Source: Betaproteobacteria bacterium GR16-43
Lineage (GTDB): Bacteria; Pseudomonadota; Gammaproteobacteria; Burkholderiales; Usitatibacteraceae
Assembly (NCBI GenBank): GCA_001953215.1
Contig: CP019169.1
Coordinates: forward strand, 4,650,001-4,714,000
Direction of reading: 5' to 3'
Length of the DNA stretch: 64,000 nt
The notes under the pieces are model-generated. The model ran no database searches. It was not told the origin of the DNA and saw only the letters and a list, made by a program, of their open reading frames with translations. The translations under genes and the position numbers were made by a program. This document shows positions 46,904 through 55,177 of the stretch, piece by piece (position 1 is the stretch's first letter; the number at the start of each line of letters is the position of its first letter).

Positions 46904-47695
46904 CTACCGCGCCGTCCATCCACCATCGATGGAGAACGAGGCGCCGTTCACCTGCGCGGCCGCTTCGCTCGAGAGGTAGACGGCCATGTCGGCGATCTCC
47001 TCGATCTTCACGAATTCCTTCGTGGGCTGGGGCGCGAGGATCATCTCCTTCGCGGCGGCGGCGGAAACGCCGTGCTGGCGCGAGAGGTCGTCGATCTGCT
47101 TCTGCACCAGCGGCGTCAGCACGAACCCGGGGCAGATCGCATTGCTGCGTACGCCGCTCTCGGCCACTTCGAGCGCGACCGTCTTGGTGAAACCGATGAG
47201 GCCGTGCTTGGCCGCGACGTACGCGCTCTTGTTGGGCGAAGCCACCAGCCCGTGCGCGGACGCGATGTTGATCACGCGCCCCCAGCGCCGCGCCTTCATG
47301 CCCTTCAGCACGTGGCGCGTCGCGTGGAACGCCGAGGTGAGGTTGATCGCGATGACCGCATCCCATTTCTCCGGCGGGAAGTCCTCCACCGGCGAGACGT
47401 GCTGGATGCCCGCGTTGTTCACGAGGATGTCCACCGGGCCGAGTTCCTTCTCGGCCGCCCGCACCATCGCCTCGATCTCCGCGGGCTTCGACATGTCCGC
47501 GCCGTGGTAGGCCGCCTTGGCACCGCTCTCCTTCGCGAGCGAAGCGCGCAGGCCTTCGATCTCCTTCGCGTCGCCGAAGCCGTTCAGCAGGACATGGGCC
47601 CCCTCGCGCGCGAACGCCTGCGCGATGGCGCGGCCGATGCCGCTGGTCGATCCCGTGACGATGGCCGTGCGGCCCGCGAGCCGGCGCGCGCTCAC
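46904..47695 (-). CDS. bdhA: 3-hydroxybutyrate dehydrogenase
   Basis: 263 residues of the short-chain dehydrogenase family: TGSTSGIG NAD-binding motif, NNAGIQHV, and SAYVAAKHG for the catalytic Tyr/Lys, with the BDH-type IQHVSPVEDF and APQPTKEFV. It oxidises 3-hydroxybutyrate to acetoacetate, feeding the acetoacetyl-CoA synthetase one gene away. The GTG start at 47695 overlaps the upstream acetyltransferase stop as GTGA. Confidence 0.9.
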   Translation of the reverse strand: MSARRLAGRTAIVTGSTSGIGRAIAQAFAREGAHVLLNGFGDAKEIEGLRASLAKESGAKAAYHGADMSKPAEIEAMVRAAEKELGPVDILVNNAGIQHVSPVEDFPPEKWDAVIAINLTSAFHATRHVLKGMKARRWGRVINIASAHGLVASPNKSAYVAAKHGLIGFTKTVALEVAESGVRSNAICPGFVLTPLVQKQIDDLSRQHGVSAAAAKEMILAPQPTKEFVKIEEIADMAVYLSSEAAAQVNGASFSIDGGWTAR

Positions 47696-48138
47696 GGGCG
47701 CACCATCTCGATGTGCGGGATGCCGTCTTCCATGTACATGTCCGAAGCCTTTTCGAAACCGAAATCGTTGTAGAACTTCTCCAGCCGCGCCTGCGCGCCG
47801 ATGCGGATCGCGAGGTCGGGCCACAGCGCCTTCGTTCGCTTCACCGCTTCGGCCATCAGCACGCGGCCCAGGCCGGTGCGTCGCGCCGCGTCGGTCGTCA
47901 GTACGCGGCCGATCGAAGGCTCGGTGAACTTGAGACCGGGCGGAACGATGCGGCAGTACGCCACGAGCGCTCCCGCATCGCTGCGCGTGAAGAGGTGCCA
48001 GCACTGCGGGTCCGCCCCATCGACATCCTGGAACGGGCACTCCTGCTCGAGGACGAAAACCTCCACTCGAGCCTGGTAGATGTCGTGGACCTCGCGGGGC
48101 GTGAGATCGTCGAAGGGACAGATTCGCCAAGAGGTCAT
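47692..48138 (-). CDS. ElaA-type GNAT acetyltransferase
   Basis: 148 residues: VFVLEQECPFQDVDGADP and WHLFTR, the ElaA signature, then VLTTDAARRTGLGRVLM for acetyl-CoA binding, and IGAQARLEKFYNDFGF. Substrate unknown. ATG 48138 is chosen for the W-R-I-C-P-F start of the family; its stop overlaps the bdhA start. Confidence 0.85.
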   Translation of the reverse strand: MTSWRICPFDDLTPREVHDIYQARVEVFVLEQECPFQDVDGADPQCWHLFTRSDAGALVAYCRIVPPGLKFTEPSIGRVLTTDAARRTGLGRVLMAEAVKRTKALWPDLAIRIGAQARLEKFYNDFGFEKASDMYMEDGIPHIEMVRP

Positions 48139-48142
48139 GGGA

Positions 48143-48613
48143 TCAGCCACGGTCGGAAATGTAGGGCGAAGTACCACGTGCAATATTGGACAGCATGTCG
48201 ATCGCGATTCCCTGCGCTTCGTACCCGGGCGGAAGCGCGCGGCAGCCGGACTCCCGCATCCAGGTGCAATAGCCACCGGCACGCAAGAACCGGTCGCGCT
48301 GCGAGATGGCCATGTTGAAGAGCTCGCGACGCGGCGCTGCCTCGCGAAGAACTACTCGCATTTCCGCCGCCTTCTCCGGAGCCCGGTAGTAGGCCTGGAG
48401 CAGTGCCGGATACTCCTCGCTCGCGATACCCATGTTGTTGTACCAGGCGTACGAGAAGGCCACGAACGTTCCCAGCACCCAGGCGCAGAAGAGCCCCGCG
48501 AGCCGCAACGACGTCCTCCAACGCGGATCCATCAGGAAGGCGAAGGCCACCATCGCGAGGACCGCGCTCAATCCCCCGCCAATGACAACGATCGCGATGT
48601 GATCCCAGGTCAT
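48143..48613 (-). CDS. hypothetical membrane protein
   Basis: 156 residues with two membrane segments (about 5-28 and 35-58, AIVVIGGGLSAVLAMVAFAF and LRLAGLFCAWVLGTFVAF) and a periplasmic part of helical character (YYRAPEKAAEMRVVLREA). No family recognised. A TTG at 48631 would add six residues. It lies between ppsA and the acetyltransferase gene, 4 bases from the latter. Confidence 0.65.
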   Translation of the reverse strand: MTWDHIAIVVIGGGLSAVLAMVAFAFLMDPRWRTSLRLAGLFCAWVLGTFVAFSYAWYNNMGIASEEYPALLQAYYRAPEKAAEMRVVLREAAPRRELFNMAISQRDRFLRAGGYCTWMRESGCRALPPGYEAQGIAIDMLSNIARGTSPYISDRG

Positions 48614-48649
48614 GCCGCCGCGTTCCGCCAAAAGGAACCGAGTATGACG

Positions 48650-51600
48650 CTACCCCGCGACCTTTTCACTCGCTTTCGCGAGGTGCAGCCACGTTTCCAC
48701 CACGGTGTCCGGATTGAGAGACATCGATTCGATGCCTTCGGACATCAGCCACTCGGCGAGGTCCGGATAGTCGCTGGGGCCCTGGCCACAGATGCCGACA
48801 TATTTCTTCGCTTTCCGGCACGCCTGGATCGCCAGGTGCAGCATCGCCTTCACCGCCGCGTCGCGCTCGTCGAAGCCTTCCATCACCAGCCCCGAGTCGC
48901 GGTCGAGGGCGAGTGTCAGCTGCGTCATGTCGTTGGAGCCGATGGAGAATCCGTCGTAGTGCTTGAGGAATTCGTCGGCGAGGATGGCGTTCGAGGGGAT
49001 CTCGCACATCATCACGACGCGAAGGCCGTTCCTGCCGCGCTCGAGGCCGAAGTCGCGCAGGATCGCGTGCACCTGCTCCGATTCCTTCAGCGTGCGCACG
49101 AACGGGATCATGATCTCCACGTTGGTGAGGCCCATCTCGTCGCGCACCCGCTTCATCGCCTCGCATTCGAGCTTGAAGCACTCCCGGAAGCTGGGCGCGA
49201 TGTAGCGCGAGGCGCCGCGGAACCCGAGCATCGGGTTCTCCTCGTTCGGCTCGTACTTCGCGCCGCCGATGAGGTTCCGGTACTCGTTCGACTTGAAGTC
49301 CGACATCCGGACGATGACCTTCTTCGGCCAGAACGCCGCGGCGATCGTGGCCACGCCCTCGACGATCTTGTCGACGTAGAAGCGCGTCGGGCTCGCGTAA
49401 CCGCGCGACTGCTTCGCCACCTGCGCCTTCAGCTCGGGCTGCAGCCGGTCGTATTCCAGGCAGGCCTTCGGGTGGATGCCGATCGTGTTCGAGATGATGA
49501 ATTCCAGCCGCGCGAGGCCCACGCCTTCGTTCGGGAGCTGCGAGAAGTCGAAGGCGAGCTGCGGGTTGCCGACGTTCATCGCGATCTTCACCGGGATCTT
49601 CGGCATCTTGTCCAGTTGCACCTCGATCACCTCGAAGGGCACCTTGCCGGCGTAGATGAAGCCCGTGTCGCCCTCGGCGCAGGAGACGGTGACCTCCGTG
49701 CCTTCCTTCAGGTGCTCGGTCGCGTCCTCGCAACCGACCACGGCGGGAACGCCCAGCTCGCGCGCGATGATCGCGGCATGGCAGTTGTTCGCGAGGACAG
49801 GGGTGTACCGCTCGGTAAAGACGATGTAGTTGTGGTTGTCGGCGACGGTGATGTTGTAGACGTCCGCTTCCTCGAGCGTCTCCTCCAGCGCGACCCGGGC
49901 TTGCCGCACATCCGACGCCAGGAGATGCTCGATGCGACCCTTCAGCCGGTCGTCGGTGACCGCGGGCAAGTGGCCGCGCAATCCGGCCGCATCGATCAAC
50001 AGGTTCTTGCGGACGCGATTGTTCACGTCCGAGTTGACCGTGTCCGGCAGGAGCTCGCGGGTATTGAAGAACCTGCTGCCGATCCCGCGCTCGTCTCGAC
50101 AATGAATCCGGGATGTGTACCGCCCCAGCAGATCCAGCTTCTCGACGATCTGCACGTTATAGATCGACCTGTTGACGCAAACCACGGGCACGATGCCGAT
50201 CCGGAAGCAGGCGACCATCACCGCTTCGAGCATGTCCCCGCCCGAAACGTACACGTGGACGCGACCTTCGCGGTAGCTGCCGTCGCCATCGATGACGCCC
50301 GCAAGAAAGTGACACGCCACCTCCACGTCGCTCTTCAGCAACGTGGTCACGATCGAGTCCTGCTCGTCGCGCACGGCGGTCGCGATCGCCTTGGAATAGC
50401 AGCGGTATGCGTTCGCGGACCCGACCACCTGCTTGCCGCGGATGAAGCCGCTGGAAACCTTCTTCGCCGATGCCTTGAATGCCTTGCCGTAGTTGGCCTG
50501 GAGCGCCTCGTTCATCCTCGCGATGAAGTTGAGCTTCGCGACCTCGGGCTTCTGGATGAACGTGACCTCGCCATGAGTCGCCGACAGGTACACATGGCCG
50601 TCGGTCATCAATCCGCCCAGCAGGTAGGCCAGGGAGTGTTCCTTCGGGGTGGATGCCGAGAGTTGGGGCAACTGCTGGGCAAGAAGGACGCACTCCTGCC
50701 TTGCAAGGATGTCCTGCATCTCGCGATCGACCAGCTCTCCGCCGGCCAAGGCCAGCATCTTGTGGTCCGGGGTGAGCTTTAGGTCGTTGCCCTTCGTGCG
50801 GCCGGTCTGGGAAATACCGACGCGGATCATTCCCGCGACCCGCTTCATCACCGCAAGGACCGGCTTCCACTCGATCTTGAGCGTGGTGCGGTTGAGCGAC
50901 GGAACGCTCAGGCCCTCATGGCCGCGCTCAGCGAGCTCGCTGAAGGTCATGAAGCCGACGTTCGTCAGCAAGCGGGTGTCACCTGAGAAGCAAGTGCGCC
51001 CACCCCGGTTGGTGACGATCGCCGAGGCTCTCTTCATCACCGGCTCCCAGTTGGGATCCGTCATGTCGGTCACGAGGATGTCGCCATCCTGCACGCGGGC
51101 GATCTCGGAGACGTCCACGATCACGCGCACCTTGCCCTGCCCGATCTTCGAGCCGATGGCGCGGCCTTCGGCCAGCACGTCGCCCTTCTTGCCCAGGCGG
51201 TAGCGCGTGAGCGTGCGCTTCGCGGTCTCCTGGCTCTTCACCGTCTCGGGGCGCGCCTGCAGGATGTAGAGCTTGCCGTCGCTGCCGTCGCGACCCCATT
51301 CGATGTCCATCGGCCGCGCGTAGTGGCGCTCGATGGCCATCGCGTAGCGCGCGAGCTCCTCGACTTCCGAATCCGAGAGCGAGAAGCGGTCGCGATCGCC
51401 GGGGGCCACCTGCTTTTCCTCGACCGAGGCGCCCGGCTTCGGATCCGCCGTGAACACGAGCTTGATGGCCTTGCTGCCGAGCGTCCTGCGCAGCACGGCG
51501 GGCTTGCCGTCGGCGAGGCATTTCTTCGAGACGTAGAACTCGTCGGGGTTCACCGAACCTTGCACGACGGTTTCGCCCAGGCCGTAGCTCGCGGTGATGA

Positions 51601-52243
51601 ACACCACTTCGCGGAAGCCCGATTCGGTATCCATCGTGAACATGACGCCGGCCGCACCCAGGTCGCTCCTCACCATGCGTTGCACGCCCGCGGAGATGGC
51701 GACGTCCTCGTGCTTGAAGTTCTTGTGCACCCGGTAGGCGATGGCGCGGTCGTTGTAGAGCGAGGCGAAGACGCGCTTCACGGCCTCGAGCACGTTCTCG
51801 ATGCCGCGGATGTTGAGGTAGGTCTCCTGCTGGCCGGCGAAGGAGGCATCGGGCAGGTCTTCGGCCGTGGCCGAGGAACGCACGGCGAACGACGCATCGG
51901 GCGTGCCGTGCGAGACGCGCGCGTACTCGTCGTGGATCGCCTTCACGAGCGCCGGGGGCAGCACGGCCGCCTCGACCATCGCGCGGACCTTGGCACCCGT
52001 CTTCGCGAGCGCCTGCACGTCCTCGACATCCAGGCCGTCGAGCGCGGCATCGATCAGCGCCTTCAGCTGGTTGTGGTCGAGGAACTCCTCGAACGCCCGG
52101 GCCGTGGTGGCGAAGCCGCCCGGAACGCGCACGCCCGTAGCCGCGAGCTGGCTGATGAGTTCGCCCAGGGACGCATTCTTGCCGCCGACGCTGGCCACGT
52201 CGGTCATGCGGAGTTTTTCGAGCGGGAGGACGTGGGCGGACAT
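48650..52243 (-). CDS. ppsA: phosphoenolpyruvate synthase, interrupted by an in-frame intein
   Basis: A 1197-residue precursor. Without the intein it is 794 residues, like E. coli PpsA (792): ATP-grasp/nucleotide domain (GGKNASLGELI, VRSSATAEDLPDASFAGQQ), a phosphohistidine swivel domain, and a TIM-barrel C-terminal domain (LGFRGASRY, GSNDMTQLTLALDRDSG, CGQGPSDYP). It converts pyruvate and ATP to PEP, AMP and phosphate. The intein (residues 418-820) is inserted between RGGRT and CHAAII, one residue before the catalytic histidine, so the enzyme is inactive until splicing. ATG 52243 gives MSAHVLPLEKLRMTDV; an upstream frame extension lacks support. A TATAAT hexamer lies 27-33 bases upstream. 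Confidence 0.95.
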   Translation of the reverse strand: MSAHVLPLEKLRMTDVASVGGKNASLGELISQLAATGVRVPGGFATTARAFEEFLDHNQLKALIDAALDGLDVEDVQALAKTGAKVRAMVEAAVLPPALVKAIHDEYARVSHGTPDASFAVRSSATAEDLPDASFAGQQETYLNIRGIENVLEAVKRVFASLYNDRAIAYRVHKNFKHEDVAISAGVQRMVRSDLGAAGVMFTMDTESGFREVVFITASYGLGETVVQGSVNPDEFYVSKKCLADGKPAVLRRTLGSKAIKLVFTADPKPGASVEEKQVAPGDRDRFSLSDSEVEELARYAMAIERHYARPMDIEWGRDGSDGKLYILQARPETVKSQETAKRTLTRYRLGKKGDVLAEGRAIGSKIGQGKVRVIVDVSEIARVQDGDILVTDMTDPNWEPVMKRASAIVTNRGGRTCFSGDTRLLTNVGFMTFSELAERGHEGLSVPSLNRTTLKIEWKPVLAVMKRVAGMIRVGISQTGRTKGNDLKLTPDHKMLALAGGELVDREMQDILARQECVLLAQQLPQLSASTPKEHSLAYLLGGLMTDGHVYLSATHGEVTFIQKPEVAKLNFIARMNEALQANYGKAFKASAKKVSSGFIRGKQVVGSANAYRCYSKAIATAVRDEQDSIVTTLLKSDVEVACHFLAGVIDGDGSYREGRVHVYVSGGDMLEAVMVACFRIGIVPVVCVNRSIYNVQIVEKLDLLGRYTSRIHCRDERGIGSRFFNTRELLPDTVNSDVNNRVRKNLLIDAAGLRGHLPAVTDDRLKGRIEHLLASDVRQARVALEETLEEADVYNITVADNHNYIVFTERYTPVLANNCHAAIIARELGVPAVVGCEDATEHLKEGTEVTVSCAEGDTGFIYAGKVPFEVIEVQLDKMPKIPVKIAMNVGNPQLAFDFSQLPNEGVGLARLEFIISNTIGIHPKACLEYDRLQPELKAQVAKQSRGYASPTRFYVDKIVEGVATIAAAFWPKKVIVRMSDFKSNEYRNLIGGAKYEPNEENPMLGFRGASRYIAPSFRECFKLECEAMKRVRDEMGLTNVEIMIPFVRTLKESEQVHAILRDFGLERGRNGLRVVMMCEIPSNAILADEFLKHYDGFSIGSNDMTQLTLALDRDSGLVMEGFDERDAAVKAMLHLAIQACRKAKKYVGICGQGPSDYPDLAEWLMSEGIESMSLNPDTVVETWLHLAKASEKVAG
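49784..50992 (-). other. LAGLIDADG-type intein inside PpsA
   Basis: 403 residues from the Cys of CFSGDTRLL (50992) to the Asn before CHAAI (49784). The N-terminal block A is CFSGDTRLLT, block B has LKLTPDHKM (TxxH), two dodecapeptide-like homing endonuclease motifs are LAYLLGGLMTDG and LAGVIDGDG, block F is VYNITVADNHNYIV, and the end is LANN followed by the +1 Cys. The penultimate residue is Asn, not the usual His. The endonuclease acids (Asp in both motifs) are intact, so it may still be mobile. Confidence 0.93.
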
Positions 52244-52276: not shown

Positions 52277-52350
52277 CCGTCCGGACAGCACCATTGCTGC
52301 GCCGCAATACAGCCCCGGCGGTGGCCCCGGACTCCCTGCCTCGACCCACG

Positions 52351-53175
52351 ATGCCCCAACGCCGCCGCGTCTTCTTCATCTCCGACCGAACCGGCCTCAC
52401 CGTCGAGGCGCTCGGCTCCTCGCTGCTCACGCAATTCGCCGACGTGGAATTCGTCCGCACCACGCGCCCCTTCATCGACACGGTGGAAAAAGCGCGGGAA
52501 GTGATCGCCGAGGTGAACGAGTCGAACCACGAGCTGGGAACGCGCCCCCTCGTCTTCAGCTCGATCGTGGACGACGCGGTGCGCGAGGAGATCCGCAAGG
52601 CCGACGGCCAGGTGCTGGACGTGTTCGAGCGCTTCATCGTGCCGCTGGAGGCCGAGCTGGGCGTGAAATCCACGCACGCCGTAGGCAAGAGCCACAGCGC
52701 GGGCAACGCGAAGGACTACAACCACCGCATCGAGGCGATCAACTACACGCTCTCGCACGACGACGGCGTGACCCACCGCCAGCTGGACGAGGCCGACATC
52801 ATCCTCGTGGGCGTGTCGAGGAGCGGAAAGACGCCCACGTGCCTCTACATGGCGATGCAGTTCGGCATCAAGGCCGCGAACTACCCGCTGATTCCCGAGG
52901 ACCTCGAGGCCAACCGCCTGCCGCCCTCGCTGCTGCCGCACAAGCACAAGGTGTGGGGGCTCTCGATCGCGCCGGACCGGTTGCACCAGATCCGCAAGGA
53001 ACGCCGCCCCGACTCGAAGTACGCCGCCCTCGAGAACTGCCGCTACGAGGTGAGCGCGGCGGAGAAGCTCATGCGGCAGACGGACATTCCCTTCCTCGAC
53101 TCGACCACGAAATCGATCGAGGAGATCGCCACCCACATGCTCCACGAGGCCCACCTCGTGCGGCGGGTGTACTGA
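52351..53175 (+). CDS. ppsR: PEP synthase regulatory protein (kinase/pyrophosphorylase)
   Basis: 274 residues of the DUF299 family: FFISDRTGLTVEALG at the start, the P-loop-like GVSRSGKTPT, and AIPFLD/STTKSIEEIA at the end. It phosphorylates and dephosphorylates a threonine next to the catalytic histidine of PEP synthase. It is divergent from ppsA. Because its target loop (TCHAA) is split by the intein, PpsR can act only on spliced PpsA. ATG 52351 is the family start. Confidence 0.93.
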   Translation: MPQRRRVFFISDRTGLTVEALGSSLLTQFADVEFVRTTRPFIDTVEKAREVIAEVNESNHELGTRPLVFSSIVDDAVREEIRKADGQVLDVFERFIVPLEAELGVKSTHAVGKSHSAGNAKDYNHRIEAINYTLSHDDGVTHRQLDEADIILVGVSRSGKTPTCLYMAMQFGIKAANYPLIPEDLEANRLPPSLLPHKHKVWGLSIAPDRLHQIRKERRPDSKYAALENCRYEVSAAEKLMRQTDIPFLDSTTKSIEEIATHMLHEAHLVRRVY

Positions 53176-53266
53176 CCCTTCTTTCCCCCGATTCCGCCCT
53201 GCGAACGTAGGTGTGCCAAACGGCCGCGCCTATGCGAAGATTCGGCCCATAAAGGAGGAGTCACCA

Positions 53267-55177
53267 ATGAAAACGAATAAACGCATCATCCCCGCCCTCG
53301 TCGTCTCGCTCTTCGCCACCCTCGGCGCGGCGCAATCCCAGGCTGCCCAGTTCTCCAACGTGTACGTGTTCGGCGACAGCCTTTCGGACGCCGGCTACTT
53401 CCGCCCCTTCCTCACCTCGCTGGGCCTGCCCTCGACGCTCGTGGCGACCCTCGGGCGCTTCACGATCAACCCGGGCCCGGTGTGGTCCGAGCTCGTCTCG
53501 CAGCACTACGGCGTCGCGACGCCCGGCCCGAGCAACGCGGGCGGAACGATCTACGCCCAGGGCGGCGCCCGCGTGAGCCAGGCCTCCGCCAGCACGCCCC
53601 CCGGCGCCGCGCAGCGCCCGGTGAGCACCCAGATCACGGAATACCTCGGTTCCAGCGGCGTCGCGGACCCGAACGCGCTCTACGCCGTGTTCGCCGGCGG
53701 CAACGACATGCTGCAGAACCTCGGCCTGTTCCAGGCGGGGCAGATCACGCAGGCGCAGCTCCAGGCCAACGTGCTGCAGGCCGCGTCGGACGACGTGGCG
53801 CAGATCGCGCGCCTTCGCAACGCCGGCGCCCGCTACATCCTCGCCTTCGCGCTGCCCGACGTGGGCGGCACGCCTTCGGCCGCGGCCGGCGGCGCCGCGG
53901 TGGCCGCCTCGGTCACCGCGCTCTCGGCGGGCTACAACACGACGCTCTTCACGGGCCTCGCGTCCGCGGGCGTGCGGGCGATCCCGGTCGACGTCTTCGG
54001 CCTCTTCACCGACGTGAAGAACAACGCCGCCTCGTTCGGCATCACCAACACGACCGGCATCGCGTGCCTGCCCTTCCCGCCGATCACCACGACCGGCAGC
54101 TCGCAGTTCTGCACCTCGGCCAACATCGTGCCGAACGGCCAGACGTACCTCTTCGCCGACAGCGTGCACCCCACGCCGATCGCCCAGGCCATCCTCGCCG
54201 ACTACGTGGAAGGCCTGATCGACGGCCCGTCGCAGTACTCGCTGATGGCCGAGACGGCGCTGCACGCGCGCACCGCGCACGTGCGTTCGCTCGGCGAAGG
54301 CGTGCGCACCGCGTTCGCGGCCAAGCAGGGCAACTGGAACGTGTTCGTCTCCTACGACAACTCGGACCTGAACTTCGACGCGCGCCAGGGCCTGCAGGAA
54401 CAGCGCACCGACAACAACAACCTTTCGGTGGGCGTGTCCATGATGGCCTCCGAGAACGTGGCGATCGGCGCCGCGTGGGGCCGCGCCGAGGCCAAGGCCC
54501 GGTTCGGCAACAGCGCCGGGTCCTACCGTCTCCACGAGGACGCCTTCTCGGTGTTCTTCGGCTACCGCGGCCAGAACCTCTACGCGGGTGGCGCGCTCAG
54601 CATCTCCAATACGGACTACAACGACATCAAGCGCAACATCAAGCTCGGGCCCGTCACCCGCACCGCCGAGGCGACGGCGCAGGGCAACAACGGCTCGTTC
54701 TTCGGCAACGTCGGCTACGACTTCAAGTGGGGCAACCTGCAGATCGGCCCGCTGGTGTCGCTCGCCGCGCAGAACGTGGACATCAACAGCTTCAGCGAAT
54801 CGGCCGCGGCCGGCACGCCCACCAACACGGGCCTGCTCTCGATCGGCACGCAGAAACGCCGCTCGGAAGTCTGGAGCGTCGGCGGCAAGGCGTCCTACGA
54901 CATCGCGGGCTGGACGCCATGGATCCGCGTGACCGCCGACAAGGAGCGCCGCGACGACCCGCGCTTCGTGACGGCGACGGTGCAGAGCCTGGGCTCGATC
55001 GGCAACAGCTACGACATCGAAGGCTACCGCCCGGATTCCACGTTCATCACCACGTCGCTCGGCGTGCGCGGCAACATCACGAACTGGGTCGGCGTCGGCC
55101 TCACGTTCTACAAGGTGTCGAGCCGCGAAGGCATCAAGGACGACGGCGTGACGGCTGCGCTGGCTGTCCGGTTCTGA
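53267..55177 (+). CDS. GDSL lipase/esterase autotransporter (EstA type)
   Basis: 636 residues: a signal peptide (MKTNKRIIPALVVSLFATLG, cleavage after SQA), a GDSL hydrolase domain (about 27-340) with FGDSLSDAGYF (nucleophile Ser), AGGND and FADSVHPTPI (Asp/His), and a C-terminal autotransporter beta-barrel (about 365-636) ending in a terminal Phe (ALAVRF). A strong AAAGGAGG site lies before the ATG, 9 bases. It should display an esterase on the cell surface. Confidence 0.9.
   Translation: MKTNKRIIPALVVSLFATLGAAQSQAAQFSNVYVFGDSLSDAGYFRPFLTSLGLPSTLVATLGRFTINPGPVWSELVSQHYGVATPGPSNAGGTIYAQGGARVSQASASTPPGAAQRPVSTQITEYLGSSGVADPNALYAVFAGGNDMLQNLGLFQAGQITQAQLQANVLQAASDDVAQIARLRNAGARYILAFALPDVGGTPSAAAGGAAVAASVTALSAGYNTTLFTGLASAGVRAIPVDVFGLFTDVKNNAASFGITNTTGIACLPFPPITTTGSSQFCTSANIVPNGQTYLFADSVHPTPIAQAILADYVEGLIDGPSQYSLMAETALHARTAHVRSLGEGVRTAFAAKQGNWNVFVSYDNSDLNFDARQGLQEQRTDNNNLSVGVSMMASENVAIGAAWGRAEAKARFGNSAGSYRLHEDAFSVFFGYRGQNLYAGGALSISNTDYNDIKRNIKLGPVTRTAEATAQGNNGSFFGNVGYDFKWGNLQIGPLVSLAAQNVDINSFSESAAAGTPTNTGLLSIGTQKRRSEVWSVGGKASYDIAGWTPWIRVTADKERRDDPRFVTATVQSLGSIGNSYDIEGYRPDSTFITTSLGVRGNITNWVGVGLTFYKVSSREGIKDDGVTAALAVRF

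Follow-up and report, generated by a model that had tools for sequence, protein, structure and literature searches.

The interrupted ppsA gene

The 64,000-nucleotide stretch of Betaproteobacteria bacterium GR16-43 analysed here (contig CP019169.1, positions 4,650,001 to 4,714,000, hereafter the window) contains a ppsA gene, encoding phosphoenolpyruvate (PEP) synthase, that is interrupted by an intein. The insertion lies between Thr at position -1 and Cys at position +1, and the junctions read RGGRT/CFSGD on the N-terminal side and LANN/CHAAII on the C-terminal side. The reading frame is open throughout, intein included, and the exteins joined without the intein give 794 residues in which the motif RGGRTCHAAII is continuous. 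These exteins match the NCBIfam model for PEP synthase (PRK06464, 1221.7 bits), and Pfam places PPDK_N, PEP-utilizers and PEP-utilizers_C around the insertion. His +2 is taken to be the catalytic residue that bears the phosphate, as in Escherichia coli PpsA, and Thr -1 presumably corresponds to the residue modified by PpsR in E. coli. The GC content of the intein (62.4%) is lower than that of the exteins (67.5% and 64.2%), with no striking gap.

An initial annotation, made from the sequence alone, had described a 403-residue intein with splicing blocks and two LAGLIDADG motifs between RGGRT and CHAAII, having Asn and not His as its penultimate residue. Junctions, Pfam matches, structural model and homologues all bear this out and support a large endonuclease-bearing intein beside the catalytic histidine. 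The window very probably carries a functional endonuclease-bearing intein belonging to the PEP synthase insertion allele. A profile search of the one-contig 4.8 Mb genome gave a single PPDK_N match, the interrupted ppsA itself, so PEP synthase made from this gene would require splicing. The annotation had pointed to a second intact ppsA elsewhere in the genome as the mark of a pseudogene at this locus; none was found. Coordinates are collected in Table 1.

Table 1. Features of the interrupted ppsA gene and its neighbours (positions in the window)
Feature	Position	Strand	Remarks
ppsA, PEP synthase precursor reading frame	48650..52243	minus	from the ATG of MSAHV; 794 extein and 403 intein residues, stop included
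N-extein	50993..52243	minus	417 residues, C-terminal RGGRT
Thr -1	50993..50995	minus	
Intein	49784..50992	minus	403 codons, Cys1 to Asn403
Block B, TPDH	50762..50773	minus	Thr74 and His77
LAGLIDADG motif 1, LLGGLMTDG	50597..50626	minus	acid Asp131
LAGLIDADG motif 2, LAGVIDGDG	50279..50308	minus	acid Asp237
Block F, VYNITVADNHNY	49826..49861	minus	Asn380 at F:4, His387 at F:13; places assigned by the YD/YN motif
Asn402 and Asn403	49784..49789	minus	penultimate residue (G:6) and last residue (G:7)
C-extein	48650..49783	minus	starts CHAAII; stop codon included
Cys +1 and catalytic His +2	49778..49783	minus	
ppsR, Kinase-PPPase (PF03618)	52294..53175	plus	divergent neighbour of ppsA
Open reading frame	48143-48631	minus	no Pfam match; downstream of ppsA
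GNAT acetyltransferase	47692-48282	minus	downstream of ppsA

Domains, fold and splicing class

The Pfam family Intein_splicing scored 33.5 bits in the whole-protein search (cut-off 35.8) and 36.6 bits, above the cut-off, in the genome search; the match to LAGLIDADG_3 is weak (20.0 bits against a cut-off of 22.5). A structural model was built with AlphaFold2 from 43 aligned inteins of the ppsA site and shows a Hint splicing fold together with a LAGLIDADG endonuclease (mean pLDDT 94.1, pTM 0.91). The nearest structures are whole endonuclease inteins, PI-PkoII (2cw7; Z 34.0, rmsd 3.0, 355 aligned residues) and TliVMA (7qss; Z 31.1, rmsd 3.1, 357 aligned), and PI-PfuI (1dq3) has the same whole-length architecture (Z 24.2, rmsd 4.2, 365 aligned). 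These three inteins differ from that of the window in residing in other host genes and in being only 14-21% identical to it. The Hint part of the model aligns with the mini-intein 4kl5_A (Z 17.7, rmsd 1.6, 135 aligned), and residues 114-297 align with the homing endonuclease I-DmoI (4unc_D; Z 16.7, rmsd 2.5, 164 aligned). Both LAGLIDADG motifs retain their acids, Asp131 and Asp237, as in a LAGLIDADG homing endonuclease.

The residues at the splicing centre are those of a class 1 intein: Cys1, the TxxH of block B (Thr74 and His77), and Asn403 followed by Cys +1. Class 3 inteins lack a nucleophile at position 1 and carry Trp at B:12, Cys at F:4 and Thr at G:5; class 3 chemistry was ruled out by Cys1, Met79, Asn380 and Ala401 at these places. 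The same was concluded for class 2 chemistry of the KlbA type, which according to a review goes with Ala1 and Ser at G:6 (PMC4031507), here Cys1 and Asn402. Self-excision after translation would thus follow the class 1 route, in which a thioester formed at Cys1 is transferred to Cys +1, Asn403 cyclizes and an acyl shift completes the ligated 794-residue PpsA. The third step would proceed without the usual penultimate His, as across the family described below, its role presumably being filled by His387 (F:13) together with strain in the backbone.

Occupation of the ppsA site in other organisms

The C-terminal junction was searched for with a degenerate DNA pattern in one genome per species, covering 84,980 species. 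The scan gave 96 stretches, 85 of them with an intein-like end, and the hosts of these, judged by record title, are cyanobacteria, Chromatiaceae, other proteobacteria, CPR bacteria, DPANN archaea, Methanocaldococcus, Methanocellales, Archaeoglobaceae and others. Among the 85 loci, 62 are full length, 22 are cut off at the start of the stored sequence and one (L055) has an upstream frame break. Because the pattern is exact, some codon choices escape it and the count of 85 is a minimum: within the genus of Methanocaldococcus sp. SG1 (L039) an intein of its kind was matched in 7 of 14 genomes, against three scan loci titled Methanocaldococcus or Methanococci, although these figures come from differing genome sets.

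The 11 stretches that were dropped read GGxN/[CS]HAAI and hold no intein (L020, L026, L034, L040, L045, L051, L061, L063, L086, L093 and L096). Their products resemble PpsA but carry Asn, not Thr, before [CS]H.

All 62 full-length inteins have Thr at -1 and a blastp match to the intein of the window (that of L039 over 134 residues only). They are 365-431 residues long and include no mini-intein. The intein of the window is homologous to them and lies, as they do, between GGxT and [CS]HAAI of PpsA; it is a new member of an already known intein allele. A congener genome (G004) has an 84%-identical intein at the same site, which together with the 62 blastp matches rules out a chance occurrence in the window. 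The initial annotation had regarded PpsA as an unusual host, a view that is not supported in the face of 85 occupied sites and of half the genomes in the genus of L039. The active site of PEP synthase is a recurrent intein target, in bacteria and archaea alike.

Close relatives outside the genus of the window are found in Chromatiaceae (L031, L052, L071, L077, L098 and L108), with the same site, 60-66% identity to the intein of the window and the same NN/C end. The four that were included in the intein tree form the sister group of the window's intein. Their hosts belong to another family, with exteins 63-67% identical to those of the window in the four compared. Cyanobacterial inteins, for example in Crocosphaera watsonii (L073) and Nostoc calcicola (L027), occupy the same site with about 45-50% identity, but have Cys at G:6 and form their own starred cluster in the intein tree.

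The ppsA-site intein of Methanocaldococcus is, we assume, the Methanocaldococcus jannaschii PEP synthase allele, which has been known since the 1990s. It resembles the intein of the window in its insertion point (GGxT/C...N/CHAAI), its LAGLIDADG endonuclease and the absence of the penultimate His, and is homologous over its full length, as one comparison, made with L046, shows (120/436 identities, E 1e-42). The two differ in that they are only 28% identical, that G:6 is Phe in Methanocaldococcus (L110-L114, five full-length loci returned) and Asn in the window, and that the exteins of the window are those of a bacterial PpsA. A literature search, with subscription papers largely outside its reach, found no paper titled on a PpsA intein, which does not show such inteins to be unpublished. 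In the available parts of two papers, ppsA serves only as a sequence-typing gene (PMC3990103) and PEP synthase is unmentioned (PMC2814812).

A common splicing centre

Residues were compared in 64 full-length inteins, made up of the 62 scan loci, the window and G004. None of the 64 lacks Cys1, the Thr and His of block B, Pro398 or the last Asn; the last Asn was prescribed by the scan pattern (Asn followed by Cys or Ser) for 62 of them and is not an independent test. The block F His (F:13) is kept in 61. Position F:4, normally Asp, is Asn in 63 of the 64. At G:6, where His is typical of class 1 inteins without defining them, the 85 ppsA-site inteins have Asn (33), Cys (27), Ala (6), Ser (6), Trp (3), Glu (3), Phe (3), Gly (2), Leu (1) or Lys (1), and His in none. 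Control inteins in other genes have His at G:6 in 22 of 23 and Ser in one, and Asp in block F in all 23. These controls are the 23 of 30 returned loci in which the profile match reached the end, taken from the 14 genomes of the L039 genus; they are top-scoring and so biased towards canonical inteins, and several represent one allele in different genomes, so that they are not 23 independent cases.

The ppsA-site inteins thus have a distinctive common splicing centre. Since His at G:6 occurs in none of the 85, Asn402 is a family trait and not a defect. The interest of the locus lies in this family-wide alteration rather than in the single Asn of the window's gene. Studies of the restored histidine reportedly extended to the PEP synthase intein of M. 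jannaschii, and some cyanobacterial DnaE inteins with Ser or Ala at G:6 are among the fastest known. According to one review, G:6 is not His in about 5% of functional inteins, the His residues at F:13 and G:6 are dispensable in some, and putting His back at G:6 benefits certain inteins and harms others (PMC4031507). Another review gives Ser or Ala at G:6 for cyanobacterial DnaE inteins and also says that a missing His affects splicing (PMC5874633). Given the family-wide absence of His and these reviewed cases, Asn402 offers no ground for inferring slow or conditional splicing, which the initial annotation had considered, nor for excluding it.

A tentative suggestion, rather unlikely as it stands, is that the ppsA-site inteins are a cross-domain lineage with a fixed non-canonical centre, consisting of Asn at F:4, a G:6 residue that is never His and a Pro that always stands five places ahead of the last Asn. 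In this view, cyclization of the terminal Asn may rely on another catalytic arrangement, one adapted to exteins that carry the phospho-histidine, with the host His +2 joining the splicing machinery. A large natural set of inteins lacking this His, with ten different residues at G:6, allows Asn cyclization without it to be studied.

Selection on the two domains and upkeep of the endonuclease

When the intein of the window is compared with that of G004, dN/dS is 0.13 for the Hint part and 0.12 for the endonuclease part. Four Chromatiaceae pairs gave 0.05-0.15 for the Hint part and 0.03-0.06 for the endonuclease part; in a sixth pair (L028 and L079) silent sites were saturated in both parts and no ratio was obtained. 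The exteins of the window and G004 have dN 0.128 and dS 0.570. Purifying selection on both intein domains makes a splicing gene far likelier than a pseudogene. That the ppsA of the window is a pseudogene around a dead, non-splicing intein is extremely improbable: the replacement of two canonical catalytic positions would fit such a relic, but the open frame, the single PPDK_N copy, the low dN/dS in both intein parts and in the exteins, and the retention of the invariant splicing residues all speak against it.

Of the 64 aligned inteins, 63 retain the pair of LAGLIDADG acids. This well-kept endonuclease, together with the lack of mini-inteins among the 62, bears on how long intein mobility lasts. 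The 64th intein, from Candidatus Albibeggiatoa (L048), has 382 residues and has lost both acids, an endonuclease in decay. Decay is also seen at L039, where the intein has 365 residues; there, and in a second genome of the genus, about 50 residues of the endonuclease region are missing from the match.

Mobility and history

By cutting ppsA alleles that lack the intein, at the strongly conserved phospho-histidine codons, the endonuclease would allow the intein to spread. The host could hardly mutate this site, and only a precise deletion from it would be tolerated. Trees of inteins and exteins, made by a quick method after omission of 13 of the 64 rows as near-duplicate or short, conflict in places. 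The conflict is clearest for the archaeal locus L067. Its exteins are 56% identical to those of the archaeal L042 and 37% to those of the cyanobacterial L053 (43% in the reverse comparison, which aligned a shorter stretch), while its intein is 38% identical to that of L042 and 56% to that of L053. Compared with the window, Methylobacter (L028) is 63% identical in the intein and 54% in the exteins, and Chromatium (L031) 66% and 67%. Tree conflicts and identities of this kind show horizontal movement within the family of ppsA-site inteins. A phage or plasmid vehicle was not found, as the junction was unmatched in viral contigs and tblastn gave no matches in 50,697 phage and 72,556 plasmid records.

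Within the genus of the window, two of six genomes have the intein and four have an empty ppsA site. The exteins of the window are nearest to those of a genome with an empty site (G002), at 89% identity. The empty site of G002 (L007) reads CHSAII instead of CHAAII, which might be a scar or a site resistant to cutting. From -180 to +90 around the insertion the identity between the window and G002 is 0.789 against 0.868 elsewhere, for a stretch picked after inspection; when 270-column segments are ordered by how much closer the window is to G004 than to G002, the one centred on the site comes 10th of 119. These flanks are a weak sign of local conversion. A recent gain within the genus was considered and is unsupported, the intein being as diverged as the exteins, and recent homing is not shown there.

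Several observations weigh against a functional, mobile intein in the window. The intein is rare in its vicinity: it was found in 2 of the 61 genomes in the search of relatives (its own and the one congener) and, in a sample of the class, in 1 of 369 (its own genome only). Divergence between the window and G004 is similar in the intein (dS 0.74) and the exteins (dS 0.57), which makes the intein old in the genus. In addition, two normally catalytic positions, the Asp of F:4 and the His of G:6, are altered, and Ala stands at position 401, which is Val in 60 of the 64 aligned inteins.

Possible conditional splicing and PpsR

The intein could also be read as a conditional switch, in which precursor PpsA stays inactive until a redox, temperature or metabolite signal triggers splicing, so that catalysis and control by PpsR are gated together. 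The insertion parts Thr -1 from the catalytic His, ppsR adjoins ppsA as its divergent neighbour, the residues at F:4 and G:6 are non-canonical, Cys1 and Cys +1 could be redox sensitive, and the intein is both old in the genus and conserved. However, the non-canonical residues are family-wide and thus no mark of local adaptation, the intein is absent from four of the six genomes of the genus, and the model consists of Hint and endonuclease only, with no sensor domain.

Gating by PpsR was the rationale put forward in the initial annotation. A site chosen for gating predicts PpsR alongside the intein. The PpsR family PF03618 was searched for in 50 of the 85 intein-bearing genomes, the 35 omitted being 17 cyanobacterial, 14 archaeal, 2 from Chromatiaceae and 2 other bacterial. 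It was found in only 8 of the 50, all among the 10 proteobacterial ones, and in none of the 22 archaeal, 9 cyanobacterial and 9 other bacterial genomes; several of the 50 are partial bins, so that absence is uncertain for each of these. PpsR gating is thus not general and is not supported as an explanation for the choice of site. A local effect on PpsR may occur in the genome of the window, where ppsR adjoins ppsA, but a conditional switch as a whole is improbable compared with a functional intein that splices by the class 1 route.

Surroundings and other inteins in the genome

Downstream of ppsR lies an autotransporter gene with a GDSL lipase domain (53213-55177, plus strand). No Rfam family reached the threshold in the window.

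Two further inteins were seen in the same genome, outside the window. A mini-intein of 177 residues (L001; G000:C1:860144-860674, minus strand) reads VGDDDQ/C...THN/SIYRF and has the canonical Asp and His; its host reads as a UvrD/Rep-type helicase, a name given by reading the sequence. The other (L115; G000:C1 around 2600451, plus strand) is located at the P-loop of an apparent DnaB helicase (GRPSMGK/ALSLD...VVTHN/TAFSL). It has Ala at position 1, a LAGLIDADG_3 match and what we take to be the Trp, Cys and Thr signature of class 3.

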